64,000 bases of DNA, from positions 124,001-188,000 of the forward strand of contig JAVUPY010000070.1 of the NCBI GenBank assembly GCA_032252755.1, in the 5' to 3' direction. Under the pieces are notes generated by a model. The model worked only from the letters and a program-made list of their open reading frames with translations, was not told the origin of the DNA and did no database searches. This stretch comes from Terriglobia bacterium. Lineage in GTDB: Bacteria; Acidobacteriota; Terriglobia; Terriglobales; Acidobacteriaceae. A program made the position numbers and the translations under genes. The stretch's first letter is position 1. The number at the start of each line of letters is the position of its first letter. Positions 7,587 through 18,070 of this stretch are shown here, piece after piece.

Positions 7587-7803
7587 TTGGGTGGAGCAGG
7601 CCTTCACTCCTGCATTACCCGCGCCCAACCCCACCCTCGTCATCCTGAGCGGAGCAGGTTCGCGTCGCAGACGCGAATCTGCGTAGTCGAAGGACCTGCA
7701 TTCCTCGGCAATAGCACGGACCTGCTTTACCACCCCATTGCGCCGGTGTATAAAGTGCGTCTTAGCGATGATTCGCACGTACTACATACAGATGGAGGAC
7801 ACC
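7587..7803. repeat. Family B repeat and an adjoining hairpin
   Basis: 7637-7701 carries CGTCATCCTGAGCGGAGC and GTAGTCGAAGGACCTGCA, the family B signature, with a second GGACCTGC at 7718. Between the two halves GATTCGCGTC-type arms (CGCGTC, GACGCG) pair around 7661-7676. Just before it GCAGG and CCTGC (7599-7616) form a small hairpin. The leader of the zinc-ribbon gene follows. Confidence 0.6.
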
Positions 7804-8280
7804 ATGTTCTGCAATTATTGCGGGAGTGTGCTTCCGGCGGGCGCGGCGTTTTGTCCGAGTTGCCAGGCCAAGGCGGTCGTGGTCACGGAAAGAAAGCCGA
7901 AGGTTCAGAGTCAGCTGACGCTGCTGACCGCGTTGTGGTTCGCGATGGGAGCACTGCGATTGTTCGGCGCGCTCGTGCTATTCGGAATCGGGTCGTTCAT
8001 GCTGCCGATGATCTCCCAGCAGCAACGTCAGCCAATTCCGTTCCCGGTACAAACGCTGCTGACGGGCGTTGGCATACTGGTGGCGACAATCGCGGTGTTG
8101 TCGCTGGCCGTCGGTTGGGGACTGTATCAGCGAGCACCGTGGGCGCGCATGCTCGCCCTGGTAATGGCCTTCTTCAGCCTGCTCTCCATACCTTTTGGAA
8201 CAGCGCTCGGAATCTACACGCTGGTCGTGCTGCTACCGGCCGAGTCGGAAACGGAGTGGAAGCAGATCGCGGAAGGGTGA
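7804..8280 (+). CDS. Zinc-ribbon membrane protein of unknown function
   Basis: 158 residues. The N-terminus is a zinc ribbon of the type common in membrane-anchored bacterial proteins (C3xxC6 and C17xxC20: MFCNYCG, AFCPSC). After a short linker there are about four hydrophobic segments, at roughly residues 38-65, 78-102, 108-128 and 130-148. The tail is charged. GGAGG lies six bases before the ATG at 7804, which fixes this start over an upstream ATG at 7792. I do not know the function; proteins built like this are often membrane sensors or scaffolds. It has the same architecture as the unrelated gene at 48328-49068. Confidence 0.85.
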   Translation: MFCNYCGSVLPAGAAFCPSCQAKAVVVTERKPKVQSQLTLLTALWFAMGALRLFGALVLFGIGSFMLPMISQQQRQPIPFPVQTLLTGVGILVATIAVLSLAVGWGLYQRAPWARMLALVMAFFSLLSIPFGTALGIYTLVVLLPAESETEWKQIAEG

Positions 8281-8420
8281 GCTGAGTCGGACGAGCGCAA
8301 GAACTTACGAAAGTCCCAATACGGGAATTGCACGTCGAATCCTCTGTGGGTTTCAAGAACACGTTGATTATGATTACATGCAGTGCTGGTCTTTTTTCGA
8401 ACTGCTATCGGAGGAATTGC

Positions 8421-9278
8421 GTGCCCGAGGAACCAGATGTTCACCAAGGGGCGGGTAACGCTCACGAGAATGCAAGGTGGTCACAAGTATCGCTGGGCGA
8501 TGGGATCGCTACTTACCGTCTGAGTGCTTGGGCACATTTCTTTGACTTTCTCGAAGAGGAAGTGTTTCAGTCTGCTTTGACAAACAAGCAGGTGTATATT
8601 TGGCGTGGTCAAAGGCGGTCGGATTGGAGCCTAAGTTCTTCACTGGACCGTTTTTTCGAAAAGATTGGGATTATTCAGAAAGCGCCAGACGTTCTGGAGA
8701 CTAGGTCGACAGAACACCTCCGATCATTCAAGTATGCGGCCCGAGGGCGAAGAGGGCCGAATCCGCAAACTCTCGAAGGTGAGAACGACTGGTGGGCATT
8801 AGGGCAGCATTACGGCCTAGCTACCCCACTACTCGATTGGACGCGGTCTCCGTTCGCTGCGGCATATTTCGCGTTTGAAGAAAATCCCACTGATCAGACC
8901 GCGACTCGAGTGGTCTACGGGTTGGACCAGTGGGCCGTAATGAAGCGGAATGTCGATATAGCTGACCTTCCGAGTTTGGAGCAGGGCCGGGTACCAATCA
9001 TCGAATTCATAGAGCCGATGTCCGACGAAAATCAGAGACTCGTGAACCAGGGTGGCTTATTCACGCGAGCGCCTATCGGGACACCCATCGAGCAGTGGGT
9101 CGCCCACGCGTTCGAGGGTATTTCGAGCCCCATTTTGATGCGCATTGAGATTCCAAATGATGATCGACTCATCTGCCTTCGGACACTTGATCGGATGAAT
9201 ATCAACCATCTCTCCTTATTCCCGGACTTGGTTGGGGCGTCACGTTCCGTAAACTTGAAGTCTGAACTGGGAGGCTGA
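8421..9278 (+). CDS. FRG-domain protein
   Basis: 285 residues containing an FRG domain, a family of unknown biochemical role found on many mobile and defence-type loci. The hallmark segments are visible: YIWRGQ (about residues 58-63), the WSLSSSLDRFF stretch, FKYAARG, and GQHYGLATPLLDWTRSP followed by AAYFAFEEN. The start is a GTG at 8421, with GGAGG seven bases upstream; the frame is open further back (to 8328) without a ribosome site. Codons are A/T-ending more often than in flanking genes, suggesting transfer. The Beta-family gene begins nine bases after its stop, so the two are surely cotranscribed. Confidence 0.88.
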   Translation: MPEEPDVHQGAGNAHENARWSQVSLGDGIATYRLSAWAHFFDFLEEEVFQSALTNKQVYIWRGQRRSDWSLSSSLDRFFEKIGIIQKAPDVLETRSTEHLRSFKYAARGRRGPNPQTLEGENDWWALGQHYGLATPLLDWTRSPFAAAYFAFEENPTDQTATRVVYGLDQWAVMKRNVDIADLPSLEQGRVPIIEFIEPMSDENQRLVNQGGLFTRAPIGTPIEQWVAHAFEGISSPILMRIEIPNDDRLICLRTLDRMNINHLSLFPDLVGASRSVNLKSELGG

Positions 9279-9287
9279 GACGAGCGA

Positions 9288-10400
9288 ATGTCCACACCGA
9301 GCTATGTACCTATTCTGAAGGGTAAAGAAGGTGAGTTCGCGGCGTTGGAAGCTCTTACCATTTTTTCCAACGATGTTCGCGATTCAATGATGCCCCTGAT
9401 CGAGATTCCCGGCGTGCCGTATGACTATGCCAACGAGCGTCCAGCCCGGACGCTGGAAGAGCATGTATCGGCCGTAATTGAGCGAATCAGGAAATGCTGG
9501 ACTGATCGCTCCTTGTACGTTGACCTTTCCTGGTTGGATGAAACGGAATCTCTTTCTGACGGGCAGGTAGCCTTCGGGATCGTTCTAGACGAGTGTCGTA
9601 GGCTTGGGATTCGAGCGATCCCGGTTCTCCCTCGCACTCCATCTCAGGAGACTCTTGACGCTGTGGTCGGATACTCAGCGACGAGCAGATTAGGAGCATG
9701 TGTACGTCTCGTAGTTGATGACTTCGAAGAAGAGGTCGACATTGAAGCGGACGTTTCTCGTTTAGTGACCGCATTCGGGACGCGTACAGCGGATTCCTTG
9801 GACCTTTTAATTGACCTCGAGGACCTCAGTTATGAAACGAGTCGTGCGTTACTTATCGTGCGGTCCATTTTTTCAATGATTCCTCGCAGAGACGAGTGGC
9901 GACGGATGATTGCAGCGTCTGCGTCATTTCCTGAAGACCTCAGCGATGTTAACGCAGGTAGCATCTCAACTCTACCTCGCCGAGAGTGGCAGCTTTGGCG
10001 AACTCTCCAGAGGCGCCCTACGGCTCTGCCGCGCCGAGATTTAATTTACGGAGACTACGCAATTGCGCATCCCATCCCGAAGGAGTTGGATCCTCGGACC
10101 ATGCGGATGAGTGCGAACATAAGATACACGAGCGTTGATGATTGGTTGATCATCAAAGGAAGAAATGTTCGACAGTACGGATTCGAACAATACTTTGAAC
10201 TGTGCAGAGTCCTGGTTGGAAGACCTGAATATAGTGGGCGCGGTTTTAGTTGGGGGGACAACTTCATAGAACAATGCGCTCAGGGGATGCAAGGCCCCGG
10301 CAACGCTACTACTTGGCGGAAGGTTGGGACAAACCATCACCTGACGTTAGTTGTGAGGGCGCTCGCCAACGCGTTGAACGCTGCTTCAGGCGGGTCCTGA
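9288..10400 (+). CDS. Beta-family protein (phage T4 Beta-like)
   Basis: 370 residues. The N-terminal YVPILKGKEGEFAALEAL and the MPLIEIPGVPYD segment are typical of proteins annotated as 'beta family', named after a phage T4 protein, with no established activity. The middle carries repeated strand-helix units with Asp-rich ends (LYVDLSWLDE, RLVVDDFEEE, LDLLIDLEDL), suggesting a TIM-barrel-like fold; that is my inference. It is the second gene of a pair with the FRG-domain gene. Its last 92 bp overlap, tail to tail, the end of the convergent sce7726-family gene. Base composition is lower in G+C than in the surrounding core genes. Confidence 0.85.
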   Translation: MSTPSYVPILKGKEGEFAALEALTIFSNDVRDSMMPLIEIPGVPYDYANERPARTLEEHVSAVIERIRKCWTDRSLYVDLSWLDETESLSDGQVAFGIVLDECRRLGIRAIPVLPRTPSQETLDAVVGYSATSRLGACVRLVVDDFEEEVDIEADVSRLVTAFGTRTADSLDLLIDLEDLSYETSRALLIVRSIFSMIPRRDEWRRMIAASASFPEDLSDVNAGSISTLPRREWQLWRTLQRRPTALPRRDLIYGDYAIAHPIPKELDPRTMRMSANIRYTSVDDWLIIKGRNVRQYGFEQYFELCRVLVGRPEYSGRGFSWGDNFIEQCAQGMQGPGNATTWRKVGTNHHLTLVVRALANALNAASGGS

Positions 10401-10920
10401 TAATCCTTCCGAGTTCTTCTTGAGGAATATCAAGCGAGAGTCGACGCCAAAGTAATTGCCGCGGCTTGCTTTTGATTCCCGTGACGCCAACTGAGACAAG
10501 AGCGTCGATGGCTTCGTCCCGCCACAGCAGTTGCGCTAGGGCGAATGAATCTGTCTTCCTATTCTTCTTTGCCTGCCGCTTCTTTATTAAAAGCACACCA
10601 GACTCAGCGGGTACCGCAATAGAAATCCCCCACCAATTTGGCACCATTTTTGCGATTTTGTCGGCGTGCTTGCGGGAGGTCACAACTGTCACGTAGTCGA
10701 AGACCCTGTTATACGTCTGCGTTTGGCCGGGCAATCGATTCAGGGTGTCCTGTTCACTCTTGATCTCGTAGCCATGAATACTTCCATTAATCACGGCTAG
10801 ATCAACCCTAGCGAGCCCCTGGCACAGCCCTAACTCCTCAACGACCAGCGTCTCAGGATCCCGCCCATGCTGGAGCGTCATTTCCCGGCGTAGTTCTCGA
10901 CGTATGTCTATATCACGCAT
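10309..10920 (-). CDS. sce7726-family protein, PD-(D/E)xK nuclease-like
   Basis: 203 residues from the ATG chosen here (MRDIDIRREL). The segment VVEELGLCQGLARVDLAVINGSIHGYEIKSEQD is split by key residues: E28/E29, D40, then E52 and K54 in YEIKS. The D...ExK spacing within an alpha-beta core is what PD-(D/E)xK nucleases show. The following DTLNRLPGQ and FDYVTVVTSRKH segments match the sce7726 family, named from a Sorangium locus and of unknown function. A helix-turn-helix-like C-terminal part (AIDALVSVGVTGIKSKPRQLLWRRL) follows. Other possible starts are at 10950/10953 and a GTG at 10983; none has a good ribosome site. It faces the FRG/Beta pair, and its 3' end overlaps the Beta gene. Confidence 0.8.
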   Translation of the reverse strand: MRDIDIRRELRREMTLQHGRDPETLVVEELGLCQGLARVDLAVINGSIHGYEIKSEQDTLNRLPGQTQTYNRVFDYVTVVTSRKHADKIAKMVPNWWGISIAVPAESGVLLIKKRQAKKNRKTDSFALAQLLWRDEAIDALVSVGVTGIKSKPRQLLWRRLSLDIPQEELGRIIRTRLKQRSTRWRAPSQLTSGDGLSQPSAK

Positions 10921-11025
10921 ATGGGAACAAGATGATGCAAATTCTAGCATCATCTGCGAGCTCGGAATTAACCAACTGAACACCGTTGGTCATGGGCGGC
11001 CTCGATGGGCTGATACGGTTGGCTC

Positions 11026-11562
11026 GTGCCAACGGGACTCGTACGATATCACCAATCCGGGCAATCTCATTTCATCACCTTCAGTTGCTATGGGCGGCTT
11101 CCGCTTCTGCGGGAAGCGTGGATTCGAGATTTGTTCGTCGAATGCCTGGAGAGGACGCGGCGTGAATACCTGTTTCGAGTTTACGGGTATGTCGTGATGC
11201 CCGAGCATGTGCATCTGCTGGTGTCGGAACCGAAGAAGGACACGCTGGCGCAGGCGCTGCAGGCACTGAAGGTTTCGGTGGCGGGGAGAGCGCGGCATTA
11301 CTGGCCGGAAAGAGACGTCCCGCTGTGGCAGAAGCGCTATTACGATCACAATGTCCGGTCACATGAGAGTTTCACCGACAAGTTGCGGTACATCCATCGG
11401 AACCCCGTGAAACGCGGTCTCGTTGAGAATCCCGAGGATTGGAAGTGGAGTAGTTTTCGACATTACATGACGGCGGAAGTTGGAGTGGTGGAGGTTGAGA
11501 GTCAGTGGACGGCGGATCGGAGAAACGGAAGAACCCCGAATTTGTTGACGATTCCAGAGTGA
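11026..11562 (+). CDS. REP-associated tyrosine transposase (RAYT)
   Basis: 178 residues of the Y1/HUH single-strand transposase family that mobilises REP hairpins. Visible are HFITFSCYGR (15-24), the metal-binding HxH in MPEHVHLL (H61, H63), and the catalytic tyrosine Y122 in LRYIHRNPVKRGLV, followed by PEDWKWSSFRHY, a stretch typical of RAYTs. Translation starts at a GTG (MPTGLVRYHQ); homologues begin with a similar MPxGL. The gene is complete with all motifs intact, so it may be active. Two directly repeated copies of the window's REP hairpin lie 5 and 65 bp after its stop, the usual RAYT/REP arrangement. It borders the FRG/Beta/sce7726 cassette. Confidence 0.93.
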   Translation: MPTGLVRYHQSGQSHFITFSCYGRLPLLREAWIRDLFVECLERTRREYLFRVYGYVVMPEHVHLLVSEPKKDTLAQALQALKVSVAGRARHYWPERDVPLWQKRYYDHNVRSHESFTDKLRYIHRNPVKRGLVENPEDWKWSSFRHYMTAEVGVVEVESQWTADRRNGRTPNLLTIPE

Positions 11563-11567
11563 GGTAT

Positions 11568-11603
11568 GCCCACATCCGTTAACTACGACGGATGTGGGGC
11601 ACC
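11568..11603. repeat. REP hairpin, copy 1 behind the RAYT gene
   Basis: CCCACATCCG and CGGATGTGGGGCACCG flank a short loop. Compared with the CCCACATCTGC/GCAGATGTGGG copies elsewhere, the stem has a paired change (CTG/CAG to CCG/CGG). Confidence 0.85.
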
Positions 11604-11627
11604 GAGAGAGTTGGAGAAGTCCCCAAT

Positions 11628-11663
11628 CCCACATCCGTTAACTACGACGGATGTGGGGCACCG
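11628..11663. repeat. REP hairpin, copy 2 behind the RAYT gene
   Basis: Nearly identical to the copy at 11568 and in the same orientation; the starts are 60 bp apart. The pair forms a direct doublet of the BIME kind. Confidence 0.85.
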
Positions 11664-11701
11664 TCATGGGATATCCGATGGATCAAAACGATTAGAACCG
11701 T

Positions 11702-11836
11702 CTATTTCTTTTTCTTCCCGTTGGATTTCGCAGCTGCTGTGGCGGCGCGGTTGTCGAGTTCGCGGGTTACGGCGTAGCGCATTTCGGAGATGGGTGCGGG
11801 TTTGCCGGTCCATATTTCGAACTGGCGTGCGCCCTG
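11702..11836 (-). pseudogene. Duplicated 3' end of aroDE
   Basis: About 45 codons that match the end of aroDE (12555-12692). In the aroDE frame it reads QGARQFEIWTGKPAPISEMR then YAVTRELDNRAATAAAKSNG and KKKK-stop. Differences are mostly synonymous, and the two length changes are both three bases, so the frame and stop are kept. There is no start codon or upstream part. It is either the remnant of a second aroE or a displaced gene end left by an insertion. Confidence 0.88.
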
Positions 11837-12271
11837 GCGGGTGGCCGAACCTTCCTACGACACAGGCGTTGGGTGCCCGGTCCTTTCCCGTTCTTGGAAA
11901 GGGCCGGTTGACCACGAACCTTGTCCTCTCCGGGAATTCTGCCCGATCCCTCGGTCGACGATCACACTGTCAAGAGACGGACGTCACCAATTCCCCGCAA
12001 AATATTCTCGGCGCTCGAAATATAGCTCCCAACCAAAACCTCAGAAATCACCCTTCAATTTGATATAATGTACTCGGACAGAGTTCCATCGAACGGCGCC
12101 CTTTGCGGGCGCCGTCGCTATTTGGTGCTGAAGTCCGTTGTTCGGTTCACCCGATCTTCGGTTCTTCGGTCGTGCTCTACCCTTGTCGCGCAGCGACAGG
12201 GTGGGGTTTTGATCTTTCTCAACCCGCGCACCTGCTTTAACAAACAAAAGGAAGATGTGCGCCTTCCACCT

Positions 12272-12292
12272 CCCAGGATTGAAAATCCTGGG
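12272..12292. repeat. Short palindrome, family D (CCC...TGAAA...GGG)
   Basis: CCCAGGATT-GAA-AATCCTGGG, a perfect 9-bp stem, followed by CTACAA. It shares its frame of constant ends and GAA loop with the element at 20751-20771, while the middle five pairs differ. Confidence 0.7.
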
Positions 12293-12554
12293 CTACAACC
12301 AGTCGTCCTGTGGACTTTTGCGTTGGCTCGTTCAGAATCTCTTTTGATGTTGCTTTTGATTGTTCGGAGAACAGCGGAGAGGGAGCCCGTATCTGGCGGC
12401 CATTTCCCGCCCTTAAGTCTTTTGTTTTCTATACCCGAGGATTTAAGACCAAGTGGCTCAATATTTTGCGATCAAAATCTCCGCAAAATATTGGAAACAA
12501 AGATTCGGGAAATAGGGGGGTGGGTACCCGGAACCCGGTACCTGGTACCCGCAG

Positions 12555-14135
12555 TTAGTGTTTCTTTTTCGCCTTCCCGTTGGATTTCGCTGCGGCTGCG
12601 GCCCGGTTGTCGAGTTCGCGGGTGACGGCGTAGCGCATTTCGGAGATGGGTGCGGGCTTGCCGGTCCAGATCTCGAACTGGCGCGCGCCCTGCTGCACGA
12701 ACATTTCGACGCCGCTGATGGTGTGCAGCCCCTTCGACTTCGCGAGGGCCAGAAGGCGAGTCTCCTGCGGGTTGTAAACCATGTCGAAGATGTAGCGAGC
12801 TTTCAGCTCTTTTTCGTTGAGCAGCGGTTGGCCGTTGCCGCCCATTCCGACCGGAGTGGCGTTGATGATGACGTCGAACTCGAGTTTCGCGAGATCGGCT
12901 CGCTTGATCGTCTTGGCGTGCGCTTTCTTGGCCAGTTTCTGCGCCGAAGCGGGAGTGCGATTGAGGATGAAGGCTTCGGCGCCGCGTGACTTCACGGCGT
13001 GAACGGCGGCGCGGGCCGCGCCTCCGGCGCCGAGGACGAGCACACGCGCTCCCTGAAGCGAAAGGCGCTCCTCGAGCGGAACCGTGACGCCAGCAACGTC
13101 GGTGTTGAAGCCGAAGAGGCGTCCGTCCTGCCCGCGGACGACGGTGTTGGTGGCGCCGACTTGCGCGGAGACAGCGTCGGTCTTCTCCAGCTTCGGCAGG
13201 ATCTCCTCTTTGTAAGGCATCGTCACGCTGTAGCCGCTCAAGGGGATCTCGCGGGCGCAACTGATGAGATCGTCGAGCTTCTTGGCGTGGAGCGCAAGGT
13301 AGACGGCGTTGACGGCTTCGCGGCGGAAGGCGGCGTTCATCATGACGGGCGAGAGCGAGTGTTCGACGGGATCTCCGGCGACACCGTAGACGCGCGTGGC
13401 GGCGTCGACGCTGTCGATGCGATAGACGCTGCGAAGCTCGGCGGCGGTGACTTGGCCGGGACCGGTTTCCTCGCCGCGGCCGGCGGCGGCGAAGGTGAAG
13501 ACGCTTCCGGCGCGCAGGCCGAGAACGCGGGAGATGATTCCCTGCTCGCCCATGCAGAGACCGACGAGCGAATAGCGATCGTGGTTCTCCTGCAGGAACT
13601 TCATCATGAGGACATTGTCGTAGAGGCTGGTCGCCGTGGTGACGATCTTGTAGAAGTCGGCGGCGAAGGGCTTCATGCGCGCGAAGGTTTCGTCGATCTT
13701 GCGCGTGTGCTTGAAGTCGTGGAACGACAGGAGCATGGCGGCGCGGCCGCGAAGCTTGTCGAGATCGCCGGCGCGGAGGGCTTCGGCGGATTCGAGTTCG
13801 ATGTCGACGATCTGGCATCCGGCGGCGGCTGACTTGAGGAGGACGTCGAGTTGCGCGGCGAGCGAGCCCTTGAACTTGCCGCCGTTAGGCGCACGACGGC
13901 AGGTGGCGATTACGGTGGCGTCGGTGCGGGTTTCGAGGAACTTGCGGATGCGCGGTGCGGCGGATGCGGGATTCTTCAGATAGTCGAGGCGGAACTCAAG
14001 GAACGGGTTTTCGGAGACGAGGCCCTCGGCCTTGTCCACAAGTTCATTGGGATCGGCGCCGGTGACGGCGATGCACAGTTTGGGAAGGCGCAGGCGCATC
14101 AGGCGCGCGGCGCTCATGTTGGCAGATAAGGACAT
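12555..14135 (-). CDS. aroDE: Bifunctional 3-dehydroquinate dehydratase / shikimate dehydrogenase
   Basis: Catalyses steps three and four of the shikimate pathway to chorismate. The N-terminal half (about 15-235) is a type I dehydroquinase with the catalytic His H139 (LSFHDF) and Schiff-base Lys K163 (FYKIVTT). The C-terminal half (about 245-510) is an AroE dehydrogenase with shikimate-binding SLSP (260-263), VTMPYKEE with the catalytic Lys, GATNT, GFNTD, the nucleotide motif VLGAGGAARA, and NATPVGM. Such fusions are usual in plants and occur in some bacteria. Either ATG (14135 or 14117) could be used. The C-terminal tail is Ala/Lys-rich, and its coding region is duplicated at 11702-11836. 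Confidence 0.95.
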   Translation of the reverse strand: MSLSANMSAARLMRLRLPKLCIAVTGADPNELVDKAEGLVSENPFLEFRLDYLKNPASAAPRIRKFLETRTDATVIATCRRAPNGGKFKGSLAAQLDVLLKSAAAGCQIVDIELESAEALRAGDLDKLRGRAAMLLSFHDFKHTRKIDETFARMKPFAADFYKIVTTATSLYDNVLMMKFLQENHDRYSLVGLCMGEQGIISRVLGLRAGSVFTFAAAGRGEETGPGQVTAAELRSVYRIDSVDAATRVYGVAGDPVEHSLSPVMMNAAFRREAVNAVYLALHAKKLDDLISCAREIPLSGYSVTMPYKEEILPKLEKTDAVSAQVGATNTVVRGQDGRLFGFNTDVAGVTVPLEERLSLQGARVLVLGAGGAARAAVHAVKSRGAEAFILNRTPASAQKLAKKAHAKTIKRADLAKLEFDVIINATPVGMGGNGQPLLNEKELKARYIFDMVYNPQETRLLALAKSKGLHTISGVEMFVQQGARQFEIWTGKPAPISEMRYAVTRELDNRAAAAAKSNGKAKKKH

Positions 14136-18033: not shown

Positions 18034-18070
18034 GCCCCACATCTGCTAACTGCGGCAGATGTGGGGCACG
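18034..18070. repeat. REP hairpin, best-paired copy
   Basis: CCCCACATCTGC and GCAGATGTGGGG form a perfect 12-bp stem with an 8-base loop, then CACGG. It lies between lgt and gdhA. Confidence 0.85.

Follow-up and report, generated by a model that had tools for sequence, protein, structure and literature searches.

The satellite phage P4 carries a three-gene system, gop-beta-cII, that defends E. coli against lambda and P1; its Gop protein kills when beta is missing (PMC9122126). In the P4 record, gop (247-648) and beta (651-1718, annotated as a "beta family protein") read rightward and cII (1746-2540, a "sce7726 family protein") reads leftward. A separately discovered system, PD-lambda-2, comprises as described a HigB-like protein A, an Xre-peptidase protein B and a Beta-like subunit C, with no nuclease gene; subunit C is required for defence against lambda-vir and is dispensable for toxin neutralisation (PMC9519451). 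Frg domains have been assigned to the ADP-ribosyltransferase superfamily, with a suggested role as NADases in the immunity of prokaryotes (PMC9503650).

The locus considered here is a chromosomal cassette in an acidobacterium with a 5.39-Mb genome, flanked by a GGDEF gene on one side and an aroD/aroE-type gene on the other, in the stretch of 64,000 nucleotides that we call the window. On the plus strand, an FRG-domain gene (8421..9278, 285 amino acids) starts at a GTG preceded by GGAGG and is followed, after a gap of 9 bp, by a beta gene (9288..10400, 370 amino acids). On the minus strand, a convergent gene with its ATG at 10920 encodes a sce7726-family protein of 203 amino acids (10309..10920) and overlaps beta tail to tail by 92 bp (10309..10400), a geometry that is conserved for this pair. 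All three frames are intact, and their starts and ribosome-binding sites look sound; a sigma-70 promoter scan of the cassette gave no match. On sequence grounds the family assignments are beyond doubt. The FRG protein matches Pfam PF08867 (E 7.6e-23; 81.7 bits against a curated cut-off of 25) and the PADLOC single-gene candidate PDC-S15 (E 4.8e-84), Beta matches Pfam PF14350 (E 8.4e-79) and the PADLOC profiles PD-Lambda-2_C (E 3.5e-58) and beta (E 1.6e-8), and the sce7726 protein matches NCBIfam NF033832 (E 6.3e-52) and PADLOC cll (E 1e-30). A preliminary description of this DNA had placed the same three genes at these positions, with sce7726 convergent and overlapping, and the open reading frames and family matches agree with it. 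It had also spoken of three uncharacterised families, which has to be corrected for two of them, as the PADLOC matches and the comparison with P4 place the Beta and sce7726 families in tested defence systems.

Judged by their sequences, the Beta and sce7726 proteins of the window are homologues of P4 beta and CII: identities are 21% and 23%, the alignments are full-length, and the nuclease residues are kept. The gene order is also that of P4, with a gene in the toxin slot and beta reading rightward and cII convergent to them. The claim that the system is undescribed therefore does not hold for this pair, given that gop-beta-cII is a known anti-phage system (PMC9122126). However, the first gene of P4 encodes Gop, a protein of 133 amino acids with a predicted membrane helix, whereas the first gene here encodes the 285-residue FRG protein; P4 beta and cII are separated by a 27-bp gap rather than overlapping by 92 bp; and the P4 genes belong to a satellite phage rather than a chromosome. 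FRG was considered as a Gop homologue and rejected, since it gives no match to the PADLOC gop profile while P4 Gop does, and the open reading frames of the cassette include no Gop-like candidate. As for PD-lambda-2, the PD-Lambda-2_C profile gives the Beta protein of the window a better score than P4 beta does, but neither a HigB-like A nor an Xre-peptidase B was found in the cassette among its open reading frames or by PADLOC. The FRG domain is shared with PDC-S15 and the Frg clade of ADP-ribosyltransferases, which usually occur without Beta. Because the first gene is that of neither gop-beta-cII nor PD-lambda-2, the cassette is, as its sequence is read here, of the Beta-CII kind with a new FRG effector and a member of neither system. 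The novelty is thus the FRG substitution in the first-gene slot and not the whole cassette, and we found no description of the FRG-Beta-sce7726 combination in PADLOC or in the literature consulted.

The association of Beta with sce7726 extends well beyond this locus. The Beta alignment had no conserved stretch suitable for scanning sequence collections, and sce7726 was used as the query instead (80 genomic and 80 viral loci; 180 sce7726 loci in the analysed set). A convergent beta gene is present at 175 of the 180 loci, in a set biased to Beta-linked sce7726 by a query built from Beta-linked members, and of the five exceptions no fewer than three lie at a contig edge. Because of this bias, searches with Beta alone serve as a control, and they recovered a convergent sce7726 gene at 20 of 21 distinct Acidobacteriota loci. 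A 3' overlap (median 50 bp) joins the two genes in 133 of 137 distinct pairs, and a single phase accounts for 127 of these overlaps; the pair thus appears to derive from one ancestral arrangement that has been inherited as a unit. P112 and D256 of Beta are invariant, and strand-like motifs in the alignment invite the guess that Beta itself has a TIM-barrel-like fold.

The slot upstream of beta is more variable. It holds an Xre-peptidase gene at 22 loci, an FRG gene at three and a small membrane-helix protein at a few, and many loci have no obvious gene there. The Xre-type proteins combine an Xre helix-turn-helix with an M78-type peptidase (domains checked in two members, both of which match PD-Lambda-2_B), and most of these loci have a short open reading frame of HigB size upstream of the Xre gene. 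At 20 of these 22 PD-lambda-2-type loci, for example L011, L014 and L026, a convergent sce7726 gene overlaps beta, which raises the question of whether this nuclease, outside PD-lambda-2 as defined, is required for PD-lambda-2 defence. Small proteins are encoded upstream of beta at L006, L082, L030, L038 and L084, most of them with predicted membrane helices and none with a Pfam family above cut-off; they are possible Gop-like effectors.

The preliminary description had pointed out a D40...E52-x-K54 arrangement in the sce7726 protein and compared it to PD-(D/E)xK nucleases. These residues, together with E29 and Q66, are invariant in 80 homologues, and the suggested structural check came out in favour of a nuclease fold. 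A model built from 80 sequences (mean pLDDT 93.3) has its best match in 3dnx (Z 11.0, rmsd 3.7, 134 residues), after which the neighbours are PD-(D/E)xK-fold proteins, both restriction enzymes and CRISPR-associated nucleases, with PaqCI at Z 8.9 and BamHI, Can2, VRR_NUC and Hjc at Z 6-8. By both fold and D...E-x-K active site, the protein is thus predicted to be a PD-(D/E)xK nuclease. A sequence search of solved structures gave no significant match for any of the three cassette proteins.

For the FRG protein the structural evidence is weaker. The best match of its model (mean pLDDT 87.8) reaches no more than Z 5.5 (rmsd 3.8, 122 residues), yet ADP-ribosyltransferase-fold proteins make up 29 of the 31 matches listed (bacterial toxins, Tpt1/KptA, DarT, ParT and NatRT). 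A Foldseek search returned no match at E < 0.1, and a profile comparison of FRG with the RES domain gave no signal. Each score is unconvincing singly, yet such a concentration would be hard to obtain by chance, and for this reason we regard an ADP-ribosyltransferase-like fold as probable. The corresponding chemistry is suggested by this weak but consistent match together with the literature. R62, H130, D139 and W140 are invariant in the family, R62 in 32 homologues; the aligned ranges put R62 on the first core strand, where it would occupy the site of the superfamily's conserved arginine.

FRG genes are common without the rest of the cassette. Of 396 Acidobacteriota genomes sampled, 48 encode a member of the FRG family and 7 encode Beta, and among the sampled FRG loci only that of the window has a Beta neighbour. 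Most FRG genes thus lack Beta, and FRG therefore does not depend on Beta in general. For example, one FRG gene without Beta lies within a type I restriction-modification operon (L017), and FRG proteins of the PDC-S15 family also occur singly, including on phage contigs; no FRG-Beta combination was seen in viral contigs among the FRG loci with scored neighbours. A second FRG gene (L024, G000:C70:10816-11073) lies on the same contig as the window, about 122 kb away, with no Beta or sce7726 gene within the roughly 1.4 kb read around it.

The full trio was found in three cases: the window, Edaphobacter modestus (L027) and an acidobacterial MAG (L028). Relative to the window, the latter two share 55-60% identity in FRG, 54-58% in Beta and about 50% in sce7726, while beyond the trio no open reading frame from positions 1 to 30 kb of the window recurs in the flanks analysed for these two loci. 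In E. modestus FRG overlaps the start of beta by 8 bp, and a tRNA-Ser gene lies about 500 bp from the cassette. In the window itself, neither a tRNA scan of the full 64 kb nor an Rfam scan covering the first 30 kb gave a hit. In the Beta tree, the three proteins of FRG-type loci group in a single clade (SH-aLRT 100) whose sister group consists of Xre-type Betas from the same class (support 89), and this placement suggests that the effector module was exchanged once. The preliminary description had proposed counting how often the three families occur together and whether known defence genes lie nearby. Beta and sce7726 did prove to be a fixed pair, and the complete trio recurs at these three loci; a surrounding defence island is not evident among the flanking genes examined.

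That the cassette has been moved horizontally is well supported. Its genes have GC3 values of 0.53-0.57, compared with 0.70-0.83 in flanking genes and 0.65 in a nearby RAYT gene, in line with the A/T-rich codon use remarked on earlier. It recurs with unrelated flanks, and an empty site exists in a relative (G030), where 137 bp separate the GGDEF gene from the aroDE gene. The interval of about 5 kb between the same genes in the window genome is therefore extra DNA (7587..12554), in which the cassette is accompanied by repeats, the RAYT gene and a gene for a zinc-ribbon protein, and the view that the cassette interrupts core genes is thereby borne out.

Taken together, recurrence, nuclease fold, composition, the empty site and homology to tested systems give good support to the earlier idea that this is a mobile module of a defence or toxin type and that one of its proteins is nuclease-like. 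We propose, with a probability of roughly 0.58, that the cassette is a mobile phage-defence module akin to P4 gop-beta-cII, organised like a toxin-antitoxin system with FRG as its toxin and acting by abortive infection. Because FRG stands where P4 has Gop, we assign it the role of toxin and regard Beta as its partner; this gene order makes the nuclease, the effector of the preliminary description, the less likely toxin and Beta the probable controller of FRG. FRG would be an ADP-ribosyltransferase-like enzyme, probably consuming NAD+ or ADP-ribosylating a host target. Beta, which we expect to be co-transcribed with FRG, would keep it inactive in uninfected cells and take part in sensing infection, while the convergent CII nuclease may act on nucleic acid during infection, either as an additional effector or by contributing to the trigger. 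A phage that disturbs this complex would free FRG, and the infected cell would stop growing or die before phage production is complete; abortive infection through NAD+ loss or ADP-ribosylation is the likeliest outcome. The role of Beta could be that of an antitoxin, by analogy with P4, or that of an activator or sensor, to which subunit C of PD-lambda-2 points; since that subunit is dispensable for toxin neutralisation, Beta may not be an antitoxin here.

Other explanations of the same arrangement are less probable. Many Beta/sce7726 pairs are not preceded by a toxin-like gene, so the pair may act alone, with Beta as sensor and CII as nuclease effector, and FRG could then be a largely independent single-gene defence that has been added on, as its single occurrences, phage contigs included, and its status as a PADLOC single-gene candidate (PDC-S15) would allow. 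We consider this unlikely, because FRG lies only 9 bp before beta in the window and overlaps its start in L027, the three proteins have diverged to a similar degree across the three genomes, and the same slot in P4 holds the beta-dependent gop. It is still more doubtful that the cassette merely stabilises mobile DNA as an addiction module with no anti-phage role. Gop and beta do act as toxin and antitoxin (PMC9122126), and the empty site and low GC3 are a mobile signature, but both characterised Beta-containing systems are anti-phage (PMC9122126, PMC9519451) and a nuclease partner is foreign to the usual addiction pairs. Finally, the surroundings are rich in repeats and rearranged, with one gene end duplicated, as might be expected around a decayed or silent remnant of foreign genes; three intact frames with their invariant residues, sound starts and ribosome-binding sites make such a remnant very improbable.

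The defence module proposed above could also be one case of something broader. At a little under even odds, and thus tentatively, Beta and its overlapping CII nuclease may be an ancient, general control core present in many phyla, used with interchangeable killers (Gop, HigB/Xre-peptidase, an FRG ADP-ribosyltransferase or small membrane proteins) or with none. If so, a single modular system would underlie both gop-beta-cII and PD-lambda-2, and CII would be a component of PD-lambda-2 that has been overlooked. The effector slot of the P4-type system is apparently exchangeable, and the shared Beta/nuclease core links these two separately discovered systems. FRG, beta and sce7726, names that annotation pipelines use without a function, are thereby given a function-bearing context.

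The remainder of the extra segment has its own features. A small zinc-ribbon protein with hydrophobic stretches is encoded at 7804-8280, on the strand of FRG and 140 bp upstream of it; its GC3 of 0.74 is native-like, and it is absent from both the empty site of G030 and the FRG cassette of L027. Downstream, the preliminary description had noted a RAYT transposase and a duplicated gene end, both of which are real, although the cassette does not lie between the duplicate copies. The copies comprise the final ~140 bp of the aroD/aroE-type gene (11705-11845 and 12561-12692; about 90% identity, 859 bp apart), and the ~0.7 kb separating them consists of interspersed repeats also present at many other places in the genome. 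They were considered as borders of the inserted element and rejected, with the cassette outside the pair and these repeats inside it. The RAYT-type gene (11026-11562, PF01797) is directly followed, within the stretch 11026-11663, by two identical 36-nt palindromic units (CCCACATCCGTTAACTACGACGGATGTGGG...), with which it looks like a REP/RAYT pair, and a diverged copy of the unit lies near 18036.
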